Source: a virus. Taken from it: 20,652 nucleotides of DNA. The position numbers and the translations under genes were made by a program. Below are positions 6,402 through 20,612 of the stretch, piece after piece. Location: the IMG/VR virus record IMGVR_UViG_3300028800_000349, positions 1-20,652 of that record. One strand, 5' to 3'. Every line of letters begins with the position of its first letter. The first letter of the stretch is position 1. The notes beneath the pieces were generated by a model that saw only the letters and a list, made by a program, of their open reading frames with translations, was not told where the DNA came from and made no database searches.

Positions 6402-8051
6402 ATGTCTAGATTTGATTCGATGTTGCAGGATCAATTAACTCTTAAGATCGATAATATATTTGAGCTAGGTACAAATGATTCCTATTGGTCTTTGACCGAG
6501 TTGGGAATTGATTTGTACGATAATCAGGTTGAGATTTTAAATGCCGTTTGTGATCTTAGTATCCCATATGTAGGTGTACTTGCTTCTCGTGGATCGGGCA
6601 AGACTTATTCTGTTGCTATTGCCATTGTTAAGCTTTGCTTAGATAATCCAGGATTTCGTGTTGGTATCTTTGGGCCAAAAGCAGATACCTCAAAACGATT
6701 AGTTAAAGAAGATATTATAGGGCGTATTCTTTCTCCTACCTCTAAGGTCTATGCTCAAATAGACTGGAACAAAACCTCTAATTCTTTTATTCAATTTAAA
6801 AATGGATCAACTGTAAAGGCATTATCTGCTTCTCCAACTGCTACACAGGAATCAGAGCACTTTCATGTGCTGGTACTTGATGAAGCTCATAGAACTAGTG
6901 ATTTCGTGGTCAAAGAAAAATTAGTCCCAATGCTTGGTAGTTTTTCTGTTGCTAAAACTATTAAGATTGGGATTTCTCTTTATAAAAATAATTTTTGGCA
7001 TAGTTGTAATGATAATGGAACTAAGTATAAGGTTTTACGCAAAGCTTGGTCTGAATGTGATATTTATTGGCTGCAGGGATCTATACGTTATGAGGGCAAG
7101 GATTATCCTAAGCGTATTGTAGATTTGATGCCAAAAGTTGTTAAGGAAAAACTTTTTCCTAATGATTTATCCCTTCACTACGATAGTGTAGAGGGCTATT
7201 CAGAAATTGAATGGAATACACAATATGAAATGATATGGATGGAGGATATTAACCTTGTTCTATCAGGTGATCAACAAAAGAAACTTGCATCAGGATTGTT
7301 TGATATCCTTAAGAAAGGTCGTCCTGAGAGGAGTGAAAAGTATTATTTTGGTTTAGATACTGCATCAGGAACTTTGATGCCTGGGCAGAAGGATCTAGAC
7401 TGGACGGTACTAACAATTTTAAGAAAAAACCAAGATAATACTAAAGATATTATATTTAAACAGATGTGGCAGGGTGACACTGTTACTCAAATGCAGGAAA
7501 TAAGAGATTTAATTCATCCTACTGATGGTGAGTTTAAATGCGTTATGGGACTTGCTGATTTTTCAAATTTTGCTATTGGTCTTGTGGATATATTTAGAAA
7601 AGAAGGTATTCCTATGGCGGGAGTTAGTTTTGGAGCTAAAGAACCAATTACAGGAAAGAATTTTAAAAATGCTATGGTAGATCAGTTTGTTTTCGAGCTT
7701 GATAGTGGAAGAGTTCAATACCCTAATATTGAGAAGATAAAAAAGAGTAAAGTTTTTAAAGAAGGCTATGAACAATGGGGTCTTGTAGAAAGACATCGTA
7801 GCAAAGCAGGAATAAATGACAAGATCTTTGTAGATCCCTCTGCAGGGCACGACGATCACGTTTCAGCTGACGTTTTAGCCGTTTGGTGTGCAGATCAAGA
7901 GAAGTCCTTTGCAGGTAAGGTTGTCCATACTATGCGAGATGTTCCAAGACCTATAGGTGGGCCAAGTAATTTAAGTGGTTTGGGTACTCCGATGCCAGGG
8001 CAGCCTGGAGATCCTAACCAAGGTCGATTTCTTAAAGATAGGCTAACATAA
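6402..8051 (+). CDS. terL: Terminase large subunit (ATPase plus nuclease), 549 aa
   Basis: This is the DNA-packaging motor that pumps the genome through the portal and cuts the concatemer. ATG at 6402 follows GGAG with good spacing. The ATPase domain has Walker A at 61-68 (ASRGSGKT) and Walker B at 156-161 (VLVLDE, the E being the catalytic base), followed by AHR. The C-terminal RNase H-like nuclease shows the expected acidic residues: D319 in FGLDTASG, D386 in LADFSNF and the D/H cluster HDDHVSAD at 483-490. The ~550-residue length is normal. The tail after ~510 is Pro/Gly-rich and probably flexible. No clear small terminase subunit is recognisable next to it. The stop overlaps the next start (TAATG at 8049-8053). 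Confidence 0.95.
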   Translation: MSRFDSMLQDQLTLKIDNIFELGTNDSYWSLTELGIDLYDNQVEILNAVCDLSIPYVGVLASRGSGKTYSVAIAIVKLCLDNPGFRVGIFGPKADTSKRLVKEDIIGRILSPTSKVYAQIDWNKTSNSFIQFKNGSTVKALSASPTATQESEHFHVLVLDEAHRTSDFVVKEKLVPMLGSFSVAKTIKIGISLYKNNFWHSCNDNGTKYKVLRKAWSECDIYWLQGSIRYEGKDYPKRIVDLMPKVVKEKLFPNDLSLHYDSVEGYSEIEWNTQYEMIWMEDINLVLSGDQQKKLASGLFDILKKGRPERSEKYYFGLDTASGTLMPGQKDLDWTVLTILRKNQDNTKDIIFKQMWQGDTVTQMQEIRDLIHPTDGEFKCVMGLADFSNFAIGLVDIFRKEGIPMAGVSFGAKEPITGKNFKNAMVDQFVFELDSGRVQYPNIEKIKKSKVFKEGYEQWGLVERHRSKAGINDKIFVDPSAGHDDHVSADVLAVWCADQEKSFAGKVVHTMRDVPRPIGGPSNLSGLGTPMPGQPGDPNQGRFLKDRLT

Positions 8052-8200
8052 TGATTTCCGATAAAGAGCTTAAAAAAGAGATTAAAGCTATAAAAGCTTT
8101 TTTAAAATATTTAATTAGAACACATAAGAAACATGATTTCCCCGAAGTACAAGGTTATCTAGATGGTTTAATTTTTTGTTTGAAAGGGAAACTTGATTAG
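8051..8200 (+). CDS. Small hypothetical protein coupled to terL, 49 aa
   Basis: The ATG at 8051 overlaps the terminase stop codon by one base, a classic translational-coupling arrangement. The product begins MISDKELKKEIKAIKAFLKY. It is a Lys-rich amphipathic helix followed by a short mixed region (HDFPEVQGYLDGLIFCLK). There is no membrane segment, and its family is unknown. The DNA after its TAG begins the repeated motif TAGTAAATAACAAT, so the stop codon is part of that motif. It is called from coupling and the absence of another explanation for the gap. Confidence 0.55.
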   Translation: MISDKELKKEIKAIKAFLKYLIRTHKKHDFPEVQGYLDGLIFCLKGKLD

Positions 8201-8211
8201 TAAATAACAAT
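8198..8211 (+). repeat. Repeated motif TAGTAAATAACAAT
   Basis: The identical 14-mer occurs at 12741-12754, in both cases right after a gene end and ahead of an intergenic regulatory stretch. The first 11 bases also occur at 791-801. The function is unknown. Confidence 0.4.
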
Positions 8212-8224
8212 ACTAAAAAACAAG

Positions 8225-8253
8225 TTGGATCTGACGACAATTTGGGATATACT
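8225..8253 (+). promoter_or_regulatory. Sigma70-like promoter for the coiled-coil gene and portal
   Basis: TTGGAT (8225-8230) and TATACT (8248-8253) are separated by 17 bp, close to the bacterial consensus. Transcription would start near 8260 and give a ~50-nt leader to the gene at 8310. The same -10 box and spacing recur upstream of the GIY-YIG gene, which supports the call. Confidence 0.5.
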
Positions 8254-8309
8254 TAGAAGTGAAAAAATACTTATCTGCATTTCTGATTTAAAAAATCTGG
8301 AAAAATAAT

Positions 8310-8744
8310 ATGAAAAATAATCAAGCCCTTGATGAGGCTCGTAAATATTTGTTGTATGTTTCTGATGCTCTGCAAGCCATAGCGTCAAGTTATTCTACTG
8401 ATAAAGAGGATCGAACCATTTTAAATAAATTTTCTTCTGATCTGTTTGAATATTCAAATGGACTTGAGCAATTGAGGAATCAAATAACTGCTAAAGAACA
8501 GGCAAAGAAAAAAATTAAAATTGTTGCAGAATTGGAATACGCATATGAATCCCAGAAACGTCATACTGAGAAAGTTAGAACTGATTTGCGTACTGTTAAA
8601 GCACTTCTAAAGAATGCAGAGAAAATTGGTGTTGAGGCAGATATAAAAGAAGCTAAGAATCGTGTTGTCTATTATACTAATCAATTTTCTATTGCAGAAC
8701 AGAATGAATTAAAAGCTAAGAAAGAATTTGAGCAAGGAGCTTAA
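8310..8744 (+). CDS. Coiled-coil protein between terminase and portal, 144 aa
   Basis: ATG at 8310 follows CTGGAAAA, with only a weak Shine-Dalgarno. The protein is nearly all helix. The first ~60 residues contain DEARKYLLYVSDALQAI and a charged middle. Residues ~60-140 have continuous heptad-like spacing, rich in Lys, Glu and Ala, typical of a coiled coil. There are no Cys or enzyme motifs. It ends two bases before the portal start, with the portal's AAGGAG inside its last codons, so the two are probably co-translated. Position would suit a portal-associated, small-terminase-like or scaffold-type role, but I do not recognise a family. Confidence 0.75.
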   Translation: MKNNQALDEARKYLLYVSDALQAIASSYSTDKEDRTILNKFSSDLFEYSNGLEQLRNQITAKEQAKKKIKIVAELEYAYESQKRHTEKVRTDLRTVKALLKNAEKIGVEADIKEAKNRVVYYTNQFSIAEQNELKAKKEFEQGA

Positions 8745-8745
8745 T

Positions 8746-10488
8746 ATGGCAAGACAAAAGGGCAGTAAAAATAGCAAAGGTATTTCAAAGAAAGGAACAG
8801 CATCTGGCACTGGTTTTCATGGTGGTATCCAGGAGCCAAATTCTGGAGCTAATGCATTTACTCTAGGATTGAATAAGACTGCTTCGTTGGATAAGAATGC
8901 TTCTAGTGGAGAATATTCTGTCACACAGACTCAATCTTTTTTCTATTCGCCAGAATTAACAAGTGATTCATGGGTTCTTCCAAAATCTCGTCAGGAAATT
9001 TTGAAATGGATTCGTATTTTCTTTAATCTTGAACCTTATATCCAACAGATTACAATGATGCACTCATTATATCCTTTTTCAAAATTTGATTTAGTTGTAT
9101 CTGATCCTACCATTAAGAAATTTTATGAAGAAATGTCTTCAAATGGTGATTTTAATTTATTTGAATTTATTCTTCAAGCTTCTTTGTCACGAGAAAAGTT
9201 TGGTGAGGCAATTCCATTCGGTAATTTGACTCAGGATGAAAATCCTTCTAAGAATGGTAAAAAACTTTTTCGATGGCACAATTTTATTCTTTTAGAGCCA
9301 GAGCTTGTTGAGATTAAGACGGATATGATGAGTGGGAAAAAGACTTTTGAGATGGTTCCTACCGAGGAAATTAAAGCTCTTATTTCTTCTACTCGTCCCG
9401 AAGATATTGAACGAGTTGCAGAGCTTAGAGAGTCTTCTCCAGAGCTTGTTAATGCTGTTGTAGAACATAGAAATATTAAACTTGATGAAAGTTGTGTGTC
9501 ACAGATTGCACGTATTACTGATCCTTCTGCTACACGAGGAACATCTAGGATTCAATCATGTTTTAAAGCTCTTATTCTTCAAGATTGGATTCGTCTTGCC
9601 CAATCCGCTTACGCTAAAAATTATGTATTTCCTAAAGAATTGTGGACTATTGGTGATTTAGCAAGTGGCACAATGCCTTCTAATGATGATTTAAATAATT
9701 GGAAACAGCTTATTAATCAATCTATTCAAAGTCCTCCTTTTACAATTATTGCTCCACCCATTGTTCACTATGAAGCTTTGAGTGTTATGGGTAAGCAATT
9801 TCCTTTGAATCAGGAATATGACTATATTCAGGATCAATTGCTTGTGGGGTTGGGTGTAAATAAAAATATTATTTTAGGTGAAGGTCCAAATTTTGGTAAT
9901 AGTAAAACAATGGCTCTTCAGGCATTGGTCATGCAATATAAGGCTGTACGTGACAAGTTTGAAGATTGGATGATTAATAAGTTTTTTAGACCTATTGCTG
10001 AGAAGAATGGATTTTATACTGTTGATCCTGATACGGGTGAGAAGCAGTTAATTCTTCCTCAAATCTCTTGGTATAAATCTTTGGATATTGATGCCCAAGA
10101 ACGTGAACAGGAACAATTTGCGGAGTTTCATAAAGACGGTCTTATTTCTACAAAGACCCTATTTAGTAAATATCCTAATCTTGATTATGAAACCGAACGT
10201 AAGCAATTGGAAGAAGAACGTGGAACTATTTTTGATAAAGGTGGGAAAGATAGTCGTTTGCCAGCTCAAATTTCTAAGCCTAGTAGCGGTGGTGGAGGTG
10301 GTGGAGGAGGAATTGGTGATGAAGGTTTAGGGGAAGAAGAAGGTGCTCCAGAACCAATGGAACCAACAGAGCCAATGGAACCAGGAGCTGAAGGTGAAGG
10401 TACTCTTCCTGAAGGTCAAGAGAGTTCTCCTAATGTGGGAGAAACTAATGAAGGTGGCTCTTCAGATTTGGGTATGCCAGAGGTTTAA
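8746..10488 (+). CDS. Portal protein, 580 aa
   Basis: This forms the dodecameric vertex ring through which DNA enters and leaves the head. I chose ATG at 8746 with AAGGAG at 8734-8739; a TTG at 8728 would only add six residues before the ribosome-binding site. Residues 1-60 are Lys/Gly/Ser-rich and probably disordered, containing K44-T-A-S47. The body (~65-500) has portal-like features: an early WIRIFFNLEPYI helix, the stem-like region ending in RGTSRIQSCFKAL, and QEYDYIQDQLLVGLGVNKN before the long helix QYKAVRDKFEDWMINKFFRP. The C-terminal ~70 residues are low complexity (poly-Gly, then Glu/Pro/Gly). It sits close behind the terminase, as usual. The assignment rests on pattern and context, without an invariant active site to check. 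Confidence 0.85.
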   Translation: MARQKGSKNSKGISKKGTASGTGFHGGIQEPNSGANAFTLGLNKTASLDKNASSGEYSVTQTQSFFYSPELTSDSWVLPKSRQEILKWIRIFFNLEPYIQQITMMHSLYPFSKFDLVVSDPTIKKFYEEMSSNGDFNLFEFILQASLSREKFGEAIPFGNLTQDENPSKNGKKLFRWHNFILLEPELVEIKTDMMSGKKTFEMVPTEEIKALISSTRPEDIERVAELRESSPELVNAVVEHRNIKLDESCVSQIARITDPSATRGTSRIQSCFKALILQDWIRLAQSAYAKNYVFPKELWTIGDLASGTMPSNDDLNNWKQLINQSIQSPPFTIIAPPIVHYEALSVMGKQFPLNQEYDYIQDQLLVGLGVNKNIILGEGPNFGNSKTMALQALVMQYKAVRDKFEDWMINKFFRPIAEKNGFYTVDPDTGEKQLILPQISWYKSLDIDAQEREQEQFAEFHKDGLISTKTLFSKYPNLDYETERKQLEEERGTIFDKGGKDSRLPAQISKPSSGGGGGGGGIGDEGLGEEEGAPEPMEPTEPMEPGAEGEGTLPEGQESSPNVGETNEGGSSDLGMPEV

Positions 10489-10490
10489 AA

Positions 10491-10775
10491 ATGTTTACAA
10501 GTTCTAGTTCCACTAATGTTATTTGGAATATGGATTATATAACTTCTAATATTTGTAACTCTGTATTAACTAGTAGTTCAAATAGCATTAATATCTCTTA
10601 TATTATTACACGTTGTAGAAAATGTAATCATGCCCATGCTCAAGATGGTGCAGAGGGATGTTATGATGTGATAGGACAGGCTGTAACGTTTGTAATTTGC
10701 CATTGTAAAGAACATGTCCCAACTGATAATCTTGAGTACTTGGAATATCTAATAAAGAAAAAGGAATCCTTATGA
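10491..10775 (+). CDS. Small Cys/His protein, zinc-knuckle family member 1, 94 aa
   Basis: The first of three related proteins in the window (others at 13111 and 13325). Shared pattern: CRxCxH, a mid Cys, CxC, then P-x-DNLE-Y/F-LE. Here the ligands are C42, C45, H47, C57, C70 and C72, followed by VPTDNLEYLEYL. A compact zinc site is likely; the target is unknown. The start ATG at 10491 is two bases after the portal stop with AGAGG upstream. Unlike its relatives, it carries a ~40-residue Ser/Thr/Asn-rich N-terminal extension; M14 (10530) is an alternative start, and I see no ATG nearer the zinc motif. Its stop overlaps the protease start by 4 nt (ATGA). Confidence 0.7.
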   Translation: MFTSSSSTNVIWNMDYITSNICNSVLTSSSNSINISYIITRCRKCNHAHAQDGAEGCYDVIGQAVTFVICHCKEHVPTDNLEYLEYLIKKKESL

Positions 10776-11437
10776 AAAAATCGTTAGCTTTGCTTATGTC
10801 TTTTTTGTTTACTCTTCCAGCTTGTAGTTTTTCTTCTGAATATCATGGTACTAATGAGGCTATAAGGGAAACAGTTAAAATTGTTATTAAATTAGAAAAT
10901 TCTAAAGGACAGCATAGAGAAGCCCTTTGCTCAGGAGTTATTATAGGACCCAATGAAATTTTGACTGCAGGGCACTGTGTAGAGACTCCCTATAAAGTTA
11001 TAAATATTTGGGTTCGAGATATTGATGGAAGAAGTCAACCTGCTTTGGTTGAGAAAGTTGCACCTGGAATAGATCTTGCTCTTCTTGAAATTGTTATACC
11101 TGAGAAACATTGGGCAAGAATATCTAATCATTTAGAAGTGGGAGATGCTGTAGAAGCAGTTGGGATGCCTATGGGATTAGAATGGACTTCAACATTTGGT
11201 CATGTAAGTGCTCTTCATAGAATGTTTGCTAATAGAGGTGAAAATGGCGATCTTGGTGAGTATACTCAATTTGATGCTCCTATAAATGGAGGAAATTCTG
11301 GTGGTGGGTTGTGGGATAGGCATGGTAGACTCGTTGGTATTGTTACTGCTCATGTAACACCTTGTTGGTTTGGTAGTTGGAGTGGTTTAAGTTTTGCAGT
11401 AAATATGAGCACAATTAAAGAATTTTTAAAGTCATAA
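10772..11437 (+). CDS. Exported trypsin-like (S1 family) serine protease, 221 aa
   Basis: A chymotrypsin/trypsin-fold protease with its whole catalytic triad: H68 in LTAGHC, D101 in GIDLALLEI and S176 in NGGNSGGGL. C53 and C69 sit where the conserved disulfide next to the catalytic His is found in this family. The N-terminus is a clear export signal: MKK, a hydrophobic stretch (SLALLMSFLFTL), then L-P-A-C18, which could be a lipobox (Pro at -2 is unusual) or a signal peptidase I site. It is therefore expected outside the cytoplasm of the host, not in the assembling head. AAGGA precedes ATG 10772, and the 4-nt overlap with the previous stop suggests coupling. A signal peptide is out of place in a portal-capsid cluster. 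It could be an acquired host-modifying gene or a virion protein exported after infection. Confidence 0.88.
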   Translation: MKKSLALLMSFLFTLPACSFSSEYHGTNEAIRETVKIVIKLENSKGQHREALCSGVIIGPNEILTAGHCVETPYKVINIWVRDIDGRSQPALVEKVAPGIDLALLEIVIPEKHWARISNHLEVGDAVEAVGMPMGLEWTSTFGHVSALHRMFANRGENGDLGEYTQFDAPINGGNSGGGLWDRHGRLVGIVTAHVTPCWFGSWSGLSFAVNMSTIKEFLKS

Positions 11438-11517
11438 TAATATAAATCTCCTTTTGTAAAACGGGGCTTGTTCAGTGCCCTCATCGAAACTGAATAAAAT
11501 AAATGAAAAGGAGCAAC

Positions 11518-12429
11518 ATGGAAGTGTATAGAGATAGCTACATCGTAGCATTAATGGTAAATGGAAAGATTCAGAAGGAATCTGATGATGGTTCTGTTCT
11601 TATTCCCTTTGGATCAGAGTATGTACTTCGACTTAAGAATAAACTTCGTAAACGTGCAGTAGCTGATGTTTGGATTGATGGAAAAGTAGCTGCAAAAGGT
11701 ATTGTAATTGATGCTAATGGAACTGTAGACTTAGAAAGATTTGTTGCTGATGGTAATCTTTCCGAAGGTAAACGATTCAAATTAGCTAGACTTACCGATC
11801 CAAAAGTTGATCAACCTAATGATAGTGAAAATGGGATAATTGAAGTAAATTTTTATCCAGAGAAAGATGCTCCAGTAGTTGAAAAAATAGTTGAGCATCA
11901 TGATTATTGGGATTTTAATCATTATCCCCATAATCATAATTGGATTGGGCATTGTCATCAATGTTGCAATAATAATTGGTGTTCTATCTGTCATCCAAAT
12001 ATATTTTTGTGCAAAACAACTACAACTAGCTGGGATGGACTTAGCAGCGGTAGTATCACTGTCGGTAATAATATTACTGGTGGAGATTTTAATAAAGCAT
12101 TTCAAGGTGGTGTTACAGGTAATATTCCTATGAATGCTTCATTTTCTACAGAAGCATCCATGATGTCTCAGGTAACATCAAATAACTTAGATCTAAGCAA
12201 GGTTGTTAATTGTTCTTCTCTAGGTGAAGCTGCAGCAACAGTTGAGGGAAGTACATCCTCGCAGAAGTTTAGTTCTATATCCATAGATGTAGATCGTTCA
12301 AAACCTACTACTATTCGTTTAACGGTTAAAGGTTTAAGTAAGGTTCTAGAAGTCTGCAGTGCTTGTGGCTATAAGCGCAAGAAAGACGTTAAGTATTGTC
12401 CTTATGATGCAACTCAATTAGTGGCCTAA
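11518..12429 (+). CDS. Probable structural protein with His/Cys-rich centre and degenerate zinc ribbon, 303 aa
   Basis: I chose ATG 11518, which follows AAGGAG (11508-11513); ATG 11503 would place that ribosome-binding site inside the gene. Residues ~1-115 (GSEYVLRLKNKLRKRAVADV ... GIVIDANGTVDLERF ... NGIIEVNFYPEK) resemble a beta-sandwich domain that I recall from many phage and giant-virus proteins with the pattern 'Y.l.l.N....r....v.vDG'; the family name is not certain. Residues 127-165 are packed with possible metal ligands (H127, H128, H135, H138, H140, H145, C146, H147, C149, C150, C155, C158, H159, C165). A Gly/Ser/Thr/Asn-rich stretch follows. The C-terminus has C280-x2-C283-x10-C294, where the fourth ribbon Cys is replaced (CPYD). 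A strong terminator follows directly. A virion role is inferred. Confidence 0.75.
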   Translation: MEVYRDSYIVALMVNGKIQKESDDGSVLIPFGSEYVLRLKNKLRKRAVADVWIDGKVAAKGIVIDANGTVDLERFVADGNLSEGKRFKLARLTDPKVDQPNDSENGIIEVNFYPEKDAPVVEKIVEHHDYWDFNHYPHNHNWIGHCHQCCNNNWCSICHPNIFLCKTTTTSWDGLSSGSITVGNNITGGDFNKAFQGGVTGNIPMNASFSTEASMMSQVTSNNLDLSKVVNCSSLGEAAATVEGSTSSQKFSSISIDVDRSKPTTIRLTVKGLSKVLEVCSACGYKRKKDVKYCPYDATQLVA

Positions 12430-12434
12430 GAATC

Positions 12435-12488
12435 TGGGCCTGTCTTAATTGATTAGATATTGGTTGGGACAGGCCCAATTTTTATTTT
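12435..12488 (+). terminator. Strong intrinsic terminator
   Basis: TGGGCCTGTC (12435-12444) pairs perfectly over 10 bp with GACAGGCCCA (12468-12477) around a 23-nt AT-rich loop. ATTTTTATTTT follows. The hairpin begins six bases after the stop of the His/Cys-rich protein and closes the portal-to-11518 transcript unit. It is the best terminator in the window. Confidence 0.85.
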
Positions 12489-12853: not shown

Positions 12854-13111
12854 ATGCCACAAGATAGCCACGATAGAGAAGGCAAGAAAGAACTTAATTA
12901 TATCACAGAAGATGGAGATCTTAATGTTCCAGTGATGTTTGAAGCAGTTATGGTCAAATATATGGGACGAGTTTTGGATCTCATTAGAATTTCTGACATT
13001 TCAGAACGTAATTTAACTCAACTTTCTAGAACAATTAAAGATGATTGTTATGAGAAAATCAAATTTGCTAAAGCTATCTTAGAGAAGCATGGGATTGACG
13101 AGAGCAAGTAA
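12854..13111 (+). CDS. Small acidic helical protein, 85 aa
   Basis: ATG at 12854 has a strong ribosome-binding site (AAAGAGGAG). The first ~25 residues are hydrophilic (DSHDREGKKEL). The rest is helical and amphipathic, with VMFEAVMVKYMGRVLDLIRI and a second helix SERNLTQLSRTIKDDCYEKI leading to KAILEKHGI. There is one Cys and no membrane segment. Its family is unknown. It is the first gene after intergenic element copy 2, and its stop overlaps the next start by one base (TAATG at 13109-13113), so it leads a coupled group of small genes. Confidence 0.7.
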   Translation: MPQDSHDREGKKELNYITEDGDLNVPVMFEAVMVKYMGRVLDLIRISDISERNLTQLSRTIKDDCYEKIKFAKAILEKHGIDESK

Positions 13112-13338
13112 TGCCTCTCCGAAAAATTAAGAATCCATATAACTTTCAAAAATGCAGGACATGTGATCATTATTTCCTTTCCCATACTTCTATGCCTGAC
13201 GAGACGATATTTTGTGAATGGGGAAATAGCTCTTATAAACCCACACGATGTTATTGTAGAGATTTTGTTCCTAAAGATAATTTAGAATTTCTCGAATGGA
13301 AATTGGATAAAAAGAGAAAGAAGAATGTATCAGGATAG
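13111..13338 (+). CDS. Small Cys/His protein, zinc-knuckle family member 2, 75 aa
   Basis: It starts by one-base overlap with the previous stop. The zinc pattern is C-R-T-C-D-H, a second His in the segment FLSHTS, a mid Cys in IFCEW, then RCYC and FVPKDNLEFLEW, and ends with a Lys/Arg-rich tail. It aligns over its full core with the proteins at 10491 and 13325. No enzymatic residues are seen. Small zinc proteins with a similar CRxCxH...CxC plan are common in phages, usually without known function. It may bind a phage or host protein or nucleic acid. Confidence 0.75.
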   Translation: MPLRKIKNPYNFQKCRTCDHYFLSHTSMPDETIFCEWGNSSYKPTRCYCRDFVPKDNLEFLEWKLDKKRKKNVSG

Positions 13339-13561
13339 TAGATGTCGAACTTGTAATCACTTTTGGGAAGTTCACGATCATCATGGGCGTATACGTTGCT
13401 ATGAATATCTTGATGAGGACTATAATCCAGTTGGGGATTGTTCTTGTGATACAGGATATATTCCTGGAGATAATTTAGAATATCTGGAAATGAAATATGA
13501 GCGAAACAAATTGGCTATCAAATCTCGCAATAAAAGCAATGAGGATCTGCCGCCTAAATAA
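13325..13561 (+). CDS. Small Cys/His protein, zinc-knuckle family member 3, 78 aa
   Basis: ATG at 13325 lies 14 nt inside the end of its sister gene, with GAAAGAAG upstream. The core is C-R-T-C-N-H, then HDHH, a mid Cys in IRCYEY, CSC and YIPGDNLEYLEM, followed by a basic Asn/Ser/Lys-rich tail. The tandem placement with 13111-13338 and the shared end motif indicate a local duplication. Sequence between the fixed residues has diverged strongly, so the duplication is not recent. Confidence 0.75.
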   Translation: MYQDSRCRTCNHFWEVHDHHGRIRCYEYLDEDYNPVGDCSCDTGYIPGDNLEYLEMKYERNKLAIKSRNKSNEDLPPK

Positions 13562-13589: not shown

Positions 13590-14201
13590 ATGACGGGGCC
13601 AGTTCTCAATAATTTATTGAATAGTGGATATACGCAAGTAATGTGGAATTCAAATGGTTCCCATCATAGTGAGTGTAGGGATTTAAATAAGCAAGTTTGG
13701 GATCTTCAAGATTTTTTAAGCACAACTGAATATGATGCTCCCTTGTTTTCTCGTTCTCATCCAGGTGATGCTTCTTGTACATTAACTGTATCTGGTCCTA
13801 GCCTTCCTCCAATTGAAGTTGATTCCTATGGAGAGACTGACGAAGCAATAGGTACTAATCGTCCTATAAGGGCTCCTGTAGCTCCAAAACCAACGGTTAA
13901 GAGATTAGCTCCAACTCCTGAGCCCAGGATTGATCGAAAGCCTATAGAACCAGAGAAAAAAGTTGTTTATGTTCCTAAAGAAGTTCATAAGCAGATTAAA
14001 GATCCTTTTGAGAAGCATGATCTTAGTCCTGAAGAATATTCTGATTGGTTACGAGATCTTGAGAAAGAGAATGTTGAAGAATCTATTCCAACTATTCCAG
14101 CTAAACCAACTGATGAAGAAGTAGAAGAATGGCAGCGTGGATTGGATAGAGAAACTAGTAAGAAAGTACCCAATTGGATTTACGGAATTTTTAAAGGATA
14201 A
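13590..14201 (+). CDS. Probable minor head-type protein with Pro-rich linker, about 203 aa
   Basis: The start is uncertain: 13497, 13539 and 13590 are in-frame ATGs without good ribosome-binding sites. I chose 13590 because 13497 would overlap the previous gene by 65 nt. The N-terminal part (SGYTQVMWNSNGSHHSECRD ... APLFSRSHPGDASCTL) recalls the C-terminal 'D..C..C...L ... P..HP.C.C' signature of Mu gpF-like minor capsid proteins, in degenerate form. That is a weak, inferred similarity. A Pro/Lys/Arg-rich linker follows, then two similar acidic helices: LSPEEYSDWLRDLEKE and PTDEEVEEWQRGLDRE. It ends with VPNWIYGIFKG. It lies 8 nt upstream of the protease-scaffold gene, consistent with a head role. 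Confidence 0.65.
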   Translation: MTGPVLNNLLNSGYTQVMWNSNGSHHSECRDLNKQVWDLQDFLSTTEYDAPLFSRSHPGDASCTLTVSGPSLPPIEVDSYGETDEAIGTNRPIRAPVAPKPTVKRLAPTPEPRIDRKPIEPEKKVVYVPKEVHKQIKDPFEKHDLSPEEYSDWLRDLEKENVEESIPTIPAKPTDEEVEEWQRGLDRETSKKVPNWIYGIFKG

Positions 14202-14209
14202 AATTTACT

Positions 14210-17200
14210 ATGAGTTTGATTAAGTTAGGTTCTCATCTTCGAATCTTAAAAACGGCTGCTATGGTTGAAGATTTACTTATTGATAGACCTGTTGAAGCTG
14301 CTAAACCTGTAGTTTCCAAGGTTATTGAATCAAAAAATTCTGATTTCCTTTATTATCGTGCTCGTGCAATTAGTGCTGGTGATCAAGGCCCCCTGAATAA
14401 AGATGGGGCTCGTAGTTGGAATTTTAATGGGAATAAAGATTATTTTGAGCGAAAAGAGTTAGAAGCTGCATATGAAACGTTTATTGGGCGTAACATTTTC
14501 CTTGATCATAACTCTGAGAGTTCCTTGTATTCTATTGGTAAGATTATTGACGCTTTGCCTATTGATGATAAAGAAACTGGCGAATTTTATATTGAATTAG
14601 TTGGAAAGATTGATCGTACTCTTCATCCTGAAATTTGTCGTAAGATCGAAACAGGTGAACTTAATAGCACAAGTATGGGCTGCTCAGTTGATGAGTCCAT
14701 TTGTTCTATTTGTGGTCATGTTCTTCATTCAGATGCTGATGAAAAATGTAACCATATGGGTATGAATCTTGGCAAGGAATTTCCTGCTGAAGTTGATATG
14801 CCTGAATATAGCATTAAAAAAGGGGATATGGTTCCTTGTTTTTCTATTAATAAAGGAATTGTTTTTAATGAAGATAGTATTGTGGGGGTTCCTGCAGATC
14901 CAACAGCTGTTATCAAAACCGTTTTGTCTAATATGAAGAGTCAGATTTCTAAAAAAGCTTCTCTGACAAAAAAAGAGCAATTAGATTTAGCAGCACAGAT
15001 GGAAAAATTATTTGAAAAATTAGATGCTGATACTAAGATTCAATTAAAAGCTGATTTTTGTGGCATTTGCCCACCAGTTGAAAAGGAGTCGTCCATGGCT
15101 GATAAGAGCGTAATTCCTAATGAAGAAACCAAAAAGATTTTATCTAAAATCTCTGCTTTAGAGATGGAACAACTTGAATCATTTATAACACATAAGACTA
15201 AGAAAGCTAACGAAGTAGCCAGCCAGGAGATCGTTGCTGATGCCGCTGCAAAAGAAGAGACATTTCTATCTAAGATTGTTGCTAAAGTAAAAGATGCTCT
15301 TTCTAAAGAAGCTGCTAAATGTGAACGTTGTGAGGATATTCTTAGTGAGAAAGATCCTAGTCATGAATATGACCCAGATTGTGCAGGTTCTCTTTGTGCA
15401 AAACACGAAGCAGAATGGTATAAAAAGAAATCGTCTATTTCAGCTAAATTCCAGGAAGATAAAAATAACGTTTTAGATTCCACATGGTCAGTTAATGACG
15501 GTGATAAGTGTATTCTTGAAGCTTCCCTTAAAGAGATTTGGGGCTCACAATTTGAATTACTTTCATTTGATGATCAAAGATGGGCAACTAGTGAGGAGTA
15601 TGCTAAAGAGATTGTTGCTCGTTATACCAAAGATGGTATTGAGAAACTTGCAGATGCTTGGGATGTCTCTCATAAGCTTTCAAAGACAGCTGCAGATCCA
15701 AAACTTGGTCCTTCAGGGACTCGTGCAAAACCCTCAACTGGATCTTCTAATAAAGAACACAGCTATCCAACAAATCCTAAATTTGAAAAGCCTAAACCAG
15801 GAACAAGTTCAAAAGGTCCCGCCGCACCAGCTCATAAAGATGTAAAGGACTCTAAGGTTGAAATGCCAGGGCAGGAGAAAGGTCAAACTGGTCCTGCAGC
15901 ACCAAAGGCAAAAGAAGTTAAAACAGATCATAGTGAGCCAAAGGTAGAAGCAGAAGGTAAAGAAGTAAAGAATACACCTAAGAATCCTGAAGAGAAAAAG
16001 CATGATAAGTCTGAGAAAGAAGTAAAGACGGATTATGTTGCTGAAGGTAAAGAACATATGGAAGAAGAAGCAAAAGATGGGAAAAAAGAAGATAAGAAAT
16101 CTGATAAAAAATCTTCTTTAATTAGTTGGGCTTCTCTTACCTCCAAAGCACAAGATTTTATTAAAACAGCCGCTACAAAACATATTAAAAGTGGAATGAA
16201 AAATGCTGAAGCTGTCGCTAAGGCTCACAGCGAATTTATAGCTCAGGAGAATGATATGAAAAAGCAAGCATCCGATGGCAAGCCAGATGAATCAGTTGAA
16301 GGATCTACTCTTCCAGAAGGCACGAAAGAGATGGGAGATAAGCCAGAGGAATCAGTTAAAGGTACTACCCTTCCTGGTGGTGCTGCTCCTTCTTCAGCTC
16401 CTGAAACAAGTGCTCAGGGTGACACAGAGCACAAGACACCAAATTTGACAAAGAAACCTGACGAAGCAGTTGATGGTACAACCACTCCTAAAGATCATAT
16501 TCCTAATACTCAAAAGAGTGATGAAAGTTCTAAAGGAACAACTTTCCCTGATAGTAAGAAAGAAATTGGCGATAAAGCTGAATCGGCAGTAAAAGAAGCT
16601 GCTAAATCTGAAAGCTCTGCTCCAATTGAAGCTGTTCAGGATAAACCAGCACTTTCCAAAGCAACAGCTGGTGATACACCTGAAAGCGCACGAGAAGGCG
16701 GCGATTTAAAGAAAGATCCCAAAGATATTGAATCCGTTAATAAAAAGGCTGCAACTGAAATGCCTATGCCAGCTGATAAAGATCCTATGGAATCAATGAA
16801 ACCAGAAGCTCCATTAGATGAGAAACCTCTAGATCTCCCAATGGATGGTCCTAAAGTTGACGCTCCTGCTGAAGAAGTTTCCGCATTTGATACTGCTGAG
16901 AATGTTGATATTGGTGAGGGTTATACAGCTAACAAGGATAAAGAATCTAAAGAAATTATTGTTATGAAAGATGGTCAGGAAGTCAAACGTCTCCCAGATG
17001 GTTTTGGTAAAGATATGGCAGTTGTTCTACCTCTTATGAAAGCCGTTCTTGGTCTTCCTCCAACAGAAGAAGTTAAACCTGAAGTTCCAGGTGTAGCAGC
17101 TCCTTTGGAAGAGCATAAAGAAGAACCTAAGCTTGAAGAACATCCAGGTGCAGAAGAAGCACATGAAGATGAACTTGGGATTAAAGAGTCTGCTCTTAAG

Positions 17201-17659
17201 GTAAAAGAAGCTGCCCTTGCAGAGAAAGAAGCTGCAATCACTGCAAAAGAAGCAGAGATTAAGGCTACCGAATTATCCAAGAAATTTGCCTCTATTATTC
17301 AAGCTCGTACAGAACGCTGTAAGAAAATTGTAGCTGCTTTGGTTGAAAAAGATGCACTTCAAATGGATAAAGAAGTTTATGACACAGAACGTAAGAATGG
17401 CACATATATGTTAGATGCTCAGAAAAAAGCTTTTGAATATGCTATCAAAGCAAAACAGAAAGAATTACTAGCTATGGATGATAATGCATTACTTGCTACA
17501 GAGAAAGTAATTGCTGATCTTAAAGCTCCTGCTTCTACAGTAAATACAAAGAAAGCAAGTCATATCTTTGTTTCACCTTCATTTGGTGAAGAGCTTTCTG
17601 AAGATGCACAACTTAAGAAAATCTTTGACACATTCGGTACTAAAAACAGACCACAATAA
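14210..17659 (+). CDS. Prohead-protease-like domain fused to a long scaffold-like tail, 1149 aa
   Basis: Residues ~45-245 look like a head maturation serine protease: H100 in IFLDHN, followed by YSIGKIIDA, and Ser in NSTSMGC (S155 or S153) match the His and Ser motifs of S78-type prohead proteases. An inserted zinc knuckle follows (C165, C168, C180, H182), an arrangement that I recall from other large phages. K248-K-A-S ends this domain. A second Cys/His cluster has C371, C374, C391, C396 and H399. From ~500 to ~985 the protein is disordered, rich in Lys, Glu, Pro and Ala, with internal repeats. Residues ~989-1060 are a near-perfect heptad coiled coil (ALKVKEA, ALAEKEA, AITAKEA), as expected of a scaffold. 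AAAGGA lies rather far upstream of ATG 14210. The length is well above normal for either a prohead protease or a scaffold. Confidence 0.78.
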   Translation: MSLIKLGSHLRILKTAAMVEDLLIDRPVEAAKPVVSKVIESKNSDFLYYRARAISAGDQGPLNKDGARSWNFNGNKDYFERKELEAAYETFIGRNIFLDHNSESSLYSIGKIIDALPIDDKETGEFYIELVGKIDRTLHPEICRKIETGELNSTSMGCSVDESICSICGHVLHSDADEKCNHMGMNLGKEFPAEVDMPEYSIKKGDMVPCFSINKGIVFNEDSIVGVPADPTAVIKTVLSNMKSQISKKASLTKKEQLDLAAQMEKLFEKLDADTKIQLKADFCGICPPVEKESSMADKSVIPNEETKKILSKISALEMEQLESFITHKTKKANEVASQEIVADAAAKEETFLSKIVAKVKDALSKEAAKCERCEDILSEKDPSHEYDPDCAGSLCAKHEAEWYKKKSSISAKFQEDKNNVLDSTWSVNDGDKCILEASLKEIWGSQFELLSFDDQRWATSEEYAKEIVARYTKDGIEKLADAWDVSHKLSKTAADPKLGPSGTRAKPSTGSSNKEHSYPTNPKFEKPKPGTSSKGPAAPAHKDVKDSKVEMPGQEKGQTGPAAPKAKEVKTDHSEPKVEAEGKEVKNTPKNPEEKKHDKSEKEVKTDYVAEGKEHMEEEAKDGKKEDKKSDKKSSLISWASLTSKAQDFIKTAATKHIKSGMKNAEAVAKAHSEFIAQENDMKKQASDGKPDESVEGSTLPEGTKEMGDKPEESVKGTTLPGGAAPSSAPETSAQGDTEHKTPNLTKKPDEAVDGTTTPKDHIPNTQKSDESSKGTTFPDSKKEIGDKAESAVKEAAKSESSAPIEAVQDKPALSKATAGDTPESAREGGDLKKDPKDIESVNKKAATEMPMPADKDPMESMKPEAPLDEKPLDLPMDGPKVDAPAEEVSAFDTAENVDIGEGYTANKDKESKEIIVMKDGQEVKRLPDGFGKDMAVVLPLMKAVLGLPPTEEVKPEVPGVAAPLEEHKEEPKLEEHPGAEEAHEDELGIKESALKVKEAALAEKEAAITAKEAEIKATELSKKFASIIQARTERCKKIVAALVEKDALQMDKEVYDTERKNGTYMLDAQKKAFEYAIKAKQKELLAMDDNALLATEKVIADLKAPASTVNTKKASHIFVSPSFGEELSEDAQLKKIFDTFGTKNRPQ
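15095..17659 (+). CDS. Possible nested scaffold gene by internal initiation, 854 aa
   Basis: An in-frame ATG (residue 296 of the fused protein) has AAGGAG at 15083-15088 with a 6-nt gap, one of the best ribosome-binding sites in the window. It lies just past the protease and its zinc knuckle. A product from here would hold the disordered region and coiled coil without the protease, as lambda Nu3 does within gene C. Against it, another in-frame ATG with AGGAG occurs at 16256, so such sites can arise by chance in Lys/Glu-rich coding sequence. Confidence 0.4.
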   Translation: MADKSVIPNEETKKILSKISALEMEQLESFITHKTKKANEVASQEIVADAAAKEETFLSKIVAKVKDALSKEAAKCERCEDILSEKDPSHEYDPDCAGSLCAKHEAEWYKKKSSISAKFQEDKNNVLDSTWSVNDGDKCILEASLKEIWGSQFELLSFDDQRWATSEEYAKEIVARYTKDGIEKLADAWDVSHKLSKTAADPKLGPSGTRAKPSTGSSNKEHSYPTNPKFEKPKPGTSSKGPAAPAHKDVKDSKVEMPGQEKGQTGPAAPKAKEVKTDHSEPKVEAEGKEVKNTPKNPEEKKHDKSEKEVKTDYVAEGKEHMEEEAKDGKKEDKKSDKKSSLISWASLTSKAQDFIKTAATKHIKSGMKNAEAVAKAHSEFIAQENDMKKQASDGKPDESVEGSTLPEGTKEMGDKPEESVKGTTLPGGAAPSSAPETSAQGDTEHKTPNLTKKPDEAVDGTTTPKDHIPNTQKSDESSKGTTFPDSKKEIGDKAESAVKEAAKSESSAPIEAVQDKPALSKATAGDTPESAREGGDLKKDPKDIESVNKKAATEMPMPADKDPMESMKPEAPLDEKPLDLPMDGPKVDAPAEEVSAFDTAENVDIGEGYTANKDKESKEIIVMKDGQEVKRLPDGFGKDMAVVLPLMKAVLGLPPTEEVKPEVPGVAAPLEEHKEEPKLEEHPGAEEAHEDELGIKESALKVKEAALAEKEAAITAKEAEIKATELSKKFASIIQARTERCKKIVAALVEKDALQMDKEVYDTERKNGTYMLDAQKKAFEYAIKAKQKELLAMDDNALLATEKVIADLKAPASTVNTKKASHIFVSPSFGEELSEDAQLKKIFDTFGTKNRPQ
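16280..16555 (+). repeat. Four degenerate 14-residue repeats in the scaffold-like tail
   Basis: Residues 691-782 of the fused protein hold KPDESVEGSTLPEG, KPEESVKGTTLPGG, KPDEAVDGTTTPKD and KSDESSKGTTFPDS, separated by 6-22 residues. The consensus is K-P/S-D/E-E-S/A-V-x-G-T-T-x-P. The flanks also echo each other (KEMGDKPEESV and KEIGDKAESAV). The repeats are protein-level and diverged at DNA level, so they are not a recent slippage product. Confidence 0.75.
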
Positions 17660-17664
17660 CTTCA

Positions 17665-18180
17665 ATGGGTAGACCTAAATCTCAATTTTGTAAGTATGGT
17701 CATGATACAAGTATCTGTGGAAGAGATTCTACTAATGCTTGTAATGGCTGCAAGAGAAATTGGACTTTAGAGAATAAAGATTATTACACAGCGTATCATA
17801 TAGAACATAGAAATAATATTTTAGTGCAACGAAAAGAATATCGTAACACAAATAAAGAGTTTATAGCTTTAAAAGAGAAAGAATGGAATGGTGCCCATAA
17901 AGAACGTAGTGTAGAAATAGATAGAAAGTCTTATGAACGTCATAGACCAAAACGTTTGGCTTCTATGATAAGAAGTCAAACTAATCGTAATCTTAGAGTA
18001 GTAGCTTGGACTGATTGGGATAAAATTAAAGAAATTTATGCCAATTGTCCTAAAGGAATGGAAGTTGATCATATAATTCCTTTACAGGGTAAAGAAGTTT
18101 CTGGGTTGCATGTAAGTTGGAATTTGCAATATTTAACTCCTACAGCTAATAGATCCAAGAGAAATAAACTGATTTGTTAA
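17665..18180 (+). CDS. Free-standing HNH homing endonuclease, 171 aa
   Basis: The C-terminal HNH nuclease motif is complete: E133-V-D135-H136-I-I-P, then GLHVSWNLQYL with N153, and T-ANRSKRNK with N162 and a final basic residue. The N-terminus has Cys and His (C9, H13, C19, C26, C29) that may form a zinc finger, followed by a long basic helical DNA-binding stretch. Such genes cut cognate DNA lacking them and spread by repair. It starts five bases after the scaffold stop and has no visible ribosome-binding site, so translation may depend on reinitiation from upstream. It interrupts the usual scaffold-decoration-capsid order. No intron features are seen around it. Confidence 0.88.
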   Translation: MGRPKSQFCKYGHDTSICGRDSTNACNGCKRNWTLENKDYYTAYHIEHRNNILVQRKEYRNTNKEFIALKEKEWNGAHKERSVEIDRKSYERHRPKRLASMIRSQTNRNLRVVAWTDWDKIKEIYANCPKGMEVDHIIPLQGKEVSGLHVSWNLQYLTPTANRSKRNKLIC

Positions 18181-18919: not shown

Positions 18920-19876
18920 ATGAACGATAAGTTAAATGTAGAAGCCTCCATGGAGATTCTTTCCAGCGCACAGGTTGAGGAAAAACTCACCCGCTTGATG
19001 AATTCCCCAGGTGGACTTCAAAAGATCGCACAGCAAATGCTCTCGCCCCTAAAGCGAGAACTTTTGTACGAAGGCCGTATTCGCCAACTCTTCCAGACCT
19101 ATAAACTAGCTCTTGGAGAAGAAGCAGTATTCGACGCTGATGTTGATGTACCAGCCGCAAGCATCTCAGTCGAAGGTCTTCCAGCACAGCTCGAAGTTCT
19201 AGCAGATCGTATTCGTGTTGAAACGTCACCTATTTCAACCCGCCCTATGATTCGTTGGAATGAATCGAACTTCCGCAAATATGACGTTCTAAACAGAACA
19301 CAAGAACGTGCAAAAGCATCAATCATGCTTCAGGAAGATACTCGTGGTTATAATTTGATCAACTTCGCAAGTGGTTTGACAAATCAGACACCCGCAGCAT
19401 CTCTTGCTGGTACGACTGCTGCAACAAACAACCCTTCAGTTATCGCCAACGGCGCAACTGGATTGTCCATGTATACCTTGGCTACCGCAATCGTAACCCT
19501 AAGCTCAAAGCTTTTGGTTGCCAGCAAGTTATATATTAACCCACTAACACGTAGAGACTTGCTGTTGTTCAACAATGCTCCAAGTGGTAATGGTGGACTT
19601 GGTATCTTCGCTCCTAACTTCCAGGATACAGCTCTAAAGGCTGGTCGTGTAGGTGGAATCATGGGCGTTGACGTTCTAGAGTCTGTTGTTGTTCCTTCTA
19701 ATGCCTGTTTCGTCTTGGCTCCCGCTGATTATCTTGGCGTTCTCGCCATTCGTACAGACCTATCGGTTGAGACAATGAAAGATGTAAACAAGATGGCAGA
19801 TGTATTTGCAATCTGGGAAGATCTCGGATTTTTAATCCGATATGCCAAAGGCATTGTGAAGATCACCCTACCCTAA
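18920..19876 (+). CDS. Major capsid protein (HK97-fold type), 318 aa
   Basis: This is the shell protein. AAAGGAG precedes ATG 18920. The N-terminal ~60 residues are helical (MEILSSAQVEEKLTRLM ... LKRELLYEGRIRQLF), like the N-arm or delta region. An E-loop/A-domain style body follows, with ISTRPMIRWNESNF and TLATAIVTLSSKLLVASKLY. The C-terminal part has GGIMGVDVLESVVVP, FVLAPADYLGVLAIRTDLSV and WEDLGFLIRYAKGIVKI, the beta strand, loop and strand seen at the end of many HK97-fold capsids. Eight of ten Phe codons are TTC, unlike the neighbouring genes. Position after protease/scaffold and decoration genes is the standard order. A hairpin overlapping its stop codon follows. Confidence 0.88.
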   Translation: MNDKLNVEASMEILSSAQVEEKLTRLMNSPGGLQKIAQQMLSPLKRELLYEGRIRQLFQTYKLALGEEAVFDADVDVPAASISVEGLPAQLEVLADRIRVETSPISTRPMIRWNESNFRKYDVLNRTQERAKASIMLQEDTRGYNLINFASGLTNQTPAASLAGTTAATNNPSVIANGATGLSMYTLATAIVTLSSKLLVASKLYINPLTRRDLLLFNNAPSGNGGLGIFAPNFQDTALKAGRVGGIMGVDVLESVVVPSNACFVLAPADYLGVLAIRTDLSVETMKDVNKMADVFAIWEDLGFLIRYAKGIVKITLP

Positions 19877-19888
19877 GTTATTTAGGGT
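19870..19888 (+). terminator. Hairpin over the capsid stop codon
   Basis: ACCCTAA (19870-19876, containing the TAA stop) pairs perfectly with TTAGGGT (19882-19888) around GTTAT. The T-run TATTTTT comes only 11 nt later (19899-19905), so termination would be partial. It may also protect the 3' end of the capsid mRNA. Confidence 0.5.
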
Positions 19889-19909
19889 GTTGTTGCTGTA
19901 TTTTTACTG

Positions 19910-19931
19910 GAGGGGATGTAAAAATCCCCTC
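19910..19931 (+). terminator. GC-rich hairpin after the capsid gene
   Basis: GAGGGGAT (19910-19917) pairs perfectly with ATCCCCTC (19924-19931) around GTAAAA. No T-run follows directly. The following base opens the -35 box of the next promoter. With the hairpin at 19870 it separates capsid transcription from the endonuclease gene. Confidence 0.5.
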
Positions 19932-19960
19932 TTGCTAAAAATATACAAATATGGTATACT
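19932..19960 (+). promoter_or_regulatory. Sigma70-like promoter for the GIY-YIG gene
   Basis: TTGCTA (19932-19937) and TATACT (19955-19960) are 17 bp apart. Transcription would start at about 19966-19968, at or within a base or two of the ATG at 19968, so the message may be leaderless. No ribosome-binding site is visible before that ATG, which fits. Confidence 0.6.
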
Positions 19961-19967
19961 AATAGAT

Positions 19968-20612
19968 ATGGAAAAGATAAGTGGAATTTATACAATAACT
20001 CATATAAGTAATGGTAAGATGTATGTTGGCTCTGCCATTAATATCGAAAAACGTTGGTCTGAACATCGATCAGAGTTAAATCATAATAAGCATGATAATC
20101 CTCGTCTTCAAAATTCATGGAATAAGTATGGGGAATATCAATTTAATTTTAGACTTTTAGAAGAAGTTAAAGATCCTTCTAAGCTATTAGAAAGAGAACA
20201 GTATTGGATGGATAGTTTACATAGTTCTGATAGAAATAAAGGTTTTAATATTCGTATAAAAGCTGAGAGTAATTTTGGGCTAAAACATACACTTGAGACT
20301 ATTGAAAAAATTAAATTAGGAAGTATTGGTAAAAATAGAGATAAAGTTGGTGCAAAAAATCCTTTTTTTGGTCATATGCATACAGAAGCAGCTCATAAAA
20401 AGATGCATAAGCCTAAGTCTGACGAAGGTAGAAAGAATATTAAAATTGCAAGACAAAAATATTCAGATAGTCTTAAGATTAAAAAGATTTGTTTGGGTTG
20501 TAAAGAAGAATTTTTAATGTTGCCCTATGAGGATAAACGATTCTGTAATCATCCTTGTTGGTTAAAGTATCAAACAGCTAATAGATTAAATTTAAGTAGG
20601 GAAGAAAGATAA
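19968..20612 (+). CDS. GIY-YIG homing endonuclease, 214 aa
   Basis: I chose ATG 19968, since the nuclease motif begins five residues later; a frame back to 19887 would run through both hairpins and the promoter. Residues 1-95 are a complete GIY-YIG domain: G6-I-Y-T, Y19-V-G, R29 in EKRW, catalytic Glu E77 in LEREQYW, and GFN at 92-94. Residues ~104-120 (GLKHTLETIEKIKLGS) and ~134-165 are NUMOD3-like DNA-binding repeats. The C-terminus is a zinc finger with C175, C178, C193 and C197. This is the usual plan of mobile phage endonucleases of this class. AT-rich codon use contrasts with the capsid gene beside it, consistent with insertion. A tRNA begins 12 nt after its stop. Confidence 0.9.
   Translation: MEKISGIYTITHISNGKMYVGSAINIEKRWSEHRSELNHNKHDNPRLQNSWNKYGEYQFNFRLLEEVKDPSKLLEREQYWMDSLHSSDRNKGFNIRIKAESNFGLKHTLETIEKIKLGSIGKNRDKVGAKNPFFGHMHTEAAHKKMHKPKSDEGRKNIKIARQKYSDSLKIKKICLGCKEEFLMLPYEDKRFCNHPCWLKYQTANRLNLSREER

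Follow-up and report, generated by a model that had tools for sequence, protein, structure and literature searches.

A phage clade carries a predicted exported HtrA-type serine protease at a fixed, apparently exchangeable site among its head genes

Our data show that a clade of phages carries a trypsin-fold protease gene, here called S1, at one fixed site among its head genes, and suggest that this gene has been exchanged whole between relatives. We analyzed a 20.6-kb virus record (20,652 nucleotides, the window) together with related viral contigs. The protein domain and phage-borne "protease" families containing it were already known; what is new is a clade-wide fixed slot with apparent gene-for-gene replacement.

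The S1 ORF lies on the plus strand at 10772-11437, starts with ATG and encodes a 221-residue product. This product matches Pfam Trypsin_2 (PF13365; E = 2.9e-23, 83.6 bits against a cut-off of 27.6) and Pfam Trypsin (9e-13), far beyond chance, as well as PHROG 11383 (2e-29) and PHROG 9683, annotated "protease" (1.8e-21). Among solved structures, DegQ, DegP and other HtrA proteases come closest to it in sequence, and H68 (10973-10975), D101 (11072-11074) and S176 in a GNSGG motif (11297-11299) align with the catalytic triad of DegQ. All three residues are invariant in an alignment of 14 relatives, as are C53 (10928-10930) and C69 (10976-10978), a pair that brackets the His within 10928-10978 and suits an oxidizing compartment. 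A preliminary description of this DNA had named the same ORF, with correct residue numbers and coordinates, and both the intact triad and the Cys pair near the His proved accurate.

An AlphaFold2 model built from the 14 relatives (mean pLDDT 83.5, falling below 50 at residues 18-23 and 195-203) superposes on AlgW, DegP, DegQ and DegS over residues 22-221 with Z scores of about 26-28. Neither a Pfam search nor the model revealed a C-terminal PDZ domain, the chain stopping directly after the protease domain, and the score against the NCBIfam HtrA model TIGR02037 (102 bits) is far under its cut-off of 416. S1 is thus a predicted single-domain HtrA-type (S1C-like) serine endoprotease. The preliminary label of a trypsin-like protease holds for the fold; in family terms, HtrA/S1C is nearer to it than classical trypsin.

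On the plus strand of the window, a large terminase gene (6402-8051; phrog_2, 3e-22) is followed by hyp144, a portal gene (8728-10488; phrog_16240, 5e-34) and a gene for a small Cys/His-rich protein (10491-10775) that overlaps the start of S1 in an ATGA. After S1 come hyp308 (11503-12429) and, at 12435-12477 (+), a terminator-like hairpin with a 19-pair stem and a T run, which by consensus match only is the likely end of a portal-S1 transcript. Several small genes then lead to a gene that joins a head-protease-like domain to a long acidic tail (14210-17659, +; phrog_18299, 1.5e-13 over residues 79-186, with H100 and S155 kept), a candidate head protease, and to the major capsid protein gene (18920-19876, +; phrog_2522, 6e-35). 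S1 therefore lies between the portal and the head block, as had been described. Promoter-like sites around S1 are no more frequent than expected by chance, from which we infer that S1 is co-transcribed with the portal gene and is probably made late.

Between S1 and the downstream gene hyp92, gene content varies among relatives; hyp308, which may end in a zinc ribbon, is present in only 5 of 18 contigs. The small Cys/His-rich proteins encoded at 10491-10775, 13111-13338 and 13325-13561 have in common the pattern CxxCxH...CxC as well as a tail of the form [VI]PxDNLExLE, and relatives have more copies. HNH-like (17665-18180) and GIY-YIG-like (19887-20612) ORFs, assigned by eye, flank the decoration and major capsid genes and lie elsewhere in relatives, as homing endonucleases would. 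In two relatives (L012:7219-11709 and L020:13827-18521) the head-protease-like protein contains an intein-like insertion that starts with CFKAGT or CFKEGT and ends with VNGVAVHN followed by Cys. The candidate intein site directly follows a conserved TSMG beside the putative catalytic Ser, equivalent to 14680/14681 in the window (G157/C158 of the 14210-17659 product).

We gathered relatives by scanning viral contigs with S1, portal and terminase sequences and alignments, and found 18 contigs that span the site (window included), with 17 distinct S1 sequences. An intact S1 gene lies upstream of hyp92 in every one, and the portal gene is visible upstream of S1 in 17; the remaining contig, L168, starts after the portal gene. 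Six clade records and five further records searched have one Trypsin_2 match apiece. No PF13365 match was found in phage G, LR745208 or Rctr197k, Bacillus phage G being the nearest named relative by portal sequence (33% identity). Among nine distant portal relatives (27-32%), a single one (G010) encodes a protein with Trypsin_2, which is located elsewhere and bears a different signal. Presence in all 18 contigs and absence from phage G show that S1 belongs to this clade as a fixed trait and is no stray insertion.

Viral S1 relatives with lipoprotein-type signals, judged by eye, also occur on unrelated contigs (L167, L172-L174, L176, L177, L179, L181, L183, L185, L195 and L196), some of which may not be phage. 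Some of these genes adjoin head, spanin or endolysin genes; in one unrelated phage with a phrog_12 portal (L172:1134-10403), an S1 with such a signal lies between two minor head genes.

The N-terminus of S1 was described as an export signal, and comparison with relatives bears this out: all 18 proteins begin with MK or MR and a hydrophobic stretch, the window protein with MKK. The signal spans residues 1-18 (10772-10825, +) up to a possible lipidation site, Cys18 (10823-10825), within LPAC, the commonest box among the 18 N-termini. From these N-termini, S1 is very probably exported. Of the 18 proteins, 17 have a Cys where a lipobox would place it, the exception being L006, read by eye, with VPCQA. 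Under a strict PROSITE PS51257-like rule, the window sequence fails owing to Pro at -2, while L011, L020 and L156 (scored by script) and L004 and L010 (judged by eye) pass. Cleavage by signal peptidase I, for instance at ACA/x, suits these N-termini as well. A Cys kept in otherwise very different N-termini argues for lipidation, because signal peptidase I sites put little constraint on residue -2, and we consider lipidation somewhat the better supposition. The earlier wording, a "possible" lipobox at C18, had the right strength, since Pro at -2 in LPAC fails the rule.

Other proteins with export signals in relatives include a polysaccharide deacetylase and lipoproteins, and the signal types suggest a diderm host. 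In one relative of 117 kb, L051, three genes (7711-8433, 9002-10084 and 13682-14848) specify an export-signal-bearing polysaccharide deacetylase, a family-2 glycosyltransferase and a transporter of the BT1/MFS type, hinting at wider envelope remodeling. The products at L049:5503 and L051:8435 look like outer-membrane proteins, without Pfam support.

The history of S1 departs from that of the phage itself. The window portal is 90-91% identical to those of L003 and L017, and the major capsid protein is 99% identical to that of L003, yet S1 is only 34% identical to its counterparts in L003 and L017. Conversely, L002 has a portal 85% identical and an S1 73% identical to those of the window. Portal data reject a clade of the window with L002 (p-AU = 0.0013), and S1 data reject placement of the window within its portal clade (p-AU = 8e-12). 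By blastn, homology with L003, L017 and L168 stops at 10780, nine bases inside the S1 ORF, setting the left edge of the replaced stretch at 10772-10780 (+). The right edge lies at 11383-11448 (+), where homology restarts at the end of the ORF for L006, L168 and L170 (11411-11448) and from 11383 for L004; both edges are seen in L168. DNA homology that ends at the S1 start and resumes at its end suggests that the ORF was replaced gene for gene. The simplest account is whole-gene exchange of S1 at a fixed site; the alternative is extreme local divergence.

In a wider tree, three versions of S1 form separate supported groups: A, which includes the window, B with L016 and C with L020. Version C clusters with L164, in which the 12.5 kb read shows no further recognized clade gene; this is a quick tree with several long branches, and its finer points are uncertain. 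Values of dN/dS within versions run from 0.07 to 0.23, indicating purifying selection that has kept the enzyme working. The preliminary description had called for a phylogeny against bacterial S1 proteases. Of the 80 matches listed in a scan of genome contigs, the 20 placed in our tree form one group apart from the phage genes, and we rejected recent capture of a host HtrA. The matches are mostly full-length HtrA proteins; among the 80, two pass a simple lipobox regular expression and one or two more may by eye. This sample is biased towards HtrA and does not reveal the true cellular source.

Our preferred reading, held tentatively and at a little under even chances, is that S1 is a late, exported, envelope-acting HtrA-type protease that most likely disables a receptor or entry factor. 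S1 would be synthesized late with the head proteins, exported by Sec into the host envelope and held there, probably by a lipid anchor, where it would cut one or a few host envelope proteins. Loss of a receptor or entry factor would then keep sister phages from superinfecting and progeny from sticking to debris. A target-specific enzyme facing variable host surfaces would be expected to show just such exchange of entire versions that are each under purifying selection, a pattern that suggests a protease aimed at changing host-cell targets. Random recombination between phages could also account for the swapping. Two further points count against our reading: S1 is encoded with head genes, whereas known exclusion proteins are usually made early, and the window sequence fails the strict lipobox rule. 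Of the roles proposed in the preliminary description, the likeliest kind is host-surface remodeling or a block to superinfection, which accords with the gene swapping; we found nothing in favor of an attack on competitors. A bolder form of the idea, which we regard as rather doubtful, is that the head operon holds a dedicated slot for an envelope-anchored exported protease, exchanged whole like a receptor-specificity cassette, that destroys the receptor or entry factor on which the phage itself relies and so acts in proteolytic superinfection exclusion.

Placement with late genes would also suit a helper in lysis or release, in which exported S1 cuts outer-membrane or wall-linking proteins late in infection so that large virions escape, acting beside endolysin and spanins and not on a receptor. 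In unrelated contigs, S1 genes with lipoprotein-type signals do occur next to an Rz-like spanin, in L185, and a few kb away from an endolysin, in L174. In the clade, however, S1 sits with portal and head genes, no recognized lysis gene was found within the window, and lysis targets are conserved, which leaves the gene swapping unexplained; we judge this role unlikely. Slightly more remote is envelope housekeeping or counter-defense, with S1 as a further HtrA-like enzyme, either removing misfolded proteins from the envelope or destroying a host defense protein in the periplasm. Its closest known folds are indeed the quality-control proteases DegP, DegQ, DegS and AlgW, but S1 lacks the PDZ domain that these enzymes use for substrate recognition and regulation, and hosts already own HtrA. 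Version swapping would be unexpected for general clearance, though it would fit a defense target.

Two cytoplasmic roles are far less probable. S1 might process portal or capsid proteins, its N-terminal segment being no export signal in practice; it is encoded among head genes, as is the S1 of the unrelated L172. Against this very improbable role, all 18 proteins have export-type N-termini and S1 keeps its Cys pair, identity drops to 34% for S1 against 85-99% for the portal and major capsid proteins, with which it has thus not co-evolved, and a PHROG search gave no head-protease family match for S1, phrog_18299 being matched instead by the 14210-17659 product, whose H and S are kept clade-wide. 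As had been argued from the window, the export signal and this separate domain rule out head processing as the main reading. Still harder to credit is a cytoplasmic phage-borne defense effector, like the trypsin-like domains of anti-phage systems, which was raised by PADLOC, with matches to RT-Protease_XI (1.2e-11) and LmuA and a marginal one to Avs1b. We rejected this candidate since the matches are weak and partial, covering only residues of about 327-510 of the RT-Protease models; those proteins are longer and multi-domain, S1 is a single domain with an export signal, and HtrA models match it far better.

Among known systems, the HtrA/Do proteases (DegP, DegQ, DegS and AlgW; MEROPS S1C) have the same protease domain, triad and fold as S1, and for both an envelope location is expected. 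S1 differs from them in its lack of PDZ domains, its short length, scores far under the NCBIfam cut-offs and a conserved pair of Cys residues beside the His. The families PHROG 9683 ("protease") and PHROG 11383 comprise phage-encoded proteins with the same domain, also matched by the viral S1 proteins of L167 and L176; their descriptions include neither a role nor the fixed-site replacement seen in this clade. Head maturation (prohead) proteases, which act in the cytoplasm and carry no export signal, resemble S1 in being encoded among head genes, but S1 has a different domain and an export signal, and the prohead-type domain lies in a separate gene. In the defense proteins RT-Protease and Avs1b, the trypsin-like domain is embedded in a longer multi-domain protein, unlike the 221-residue S1.

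In the limited open-access literature covered, we found no description of a phage-encoded lipoprotein protease or of a phage protease in superinfection exclusion. If our preferred reading is true, S1 would offer a concrete way to study phage remodeling of the envelope during infection, and would supply a testable role for the "protease" families of PHROG. The closest likeness in role, itself inferred, is to phage-encoded exported envelope proteins. Precedent comes from T5 Llp, a phage lipoprotein located in the periplasm, which prevents superinfection as well as adsorption to fragments (PMC9586334); Ltp of a Streptococcus thermophilus phage is a superinfection-exclusion lipoprotein (PMC3952083). 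Llp and Ltp bind or block and are not proteases, and the lipidation of S1 is putative; a proteolytic route to exclusion would differ from that of these known envelope proteins.
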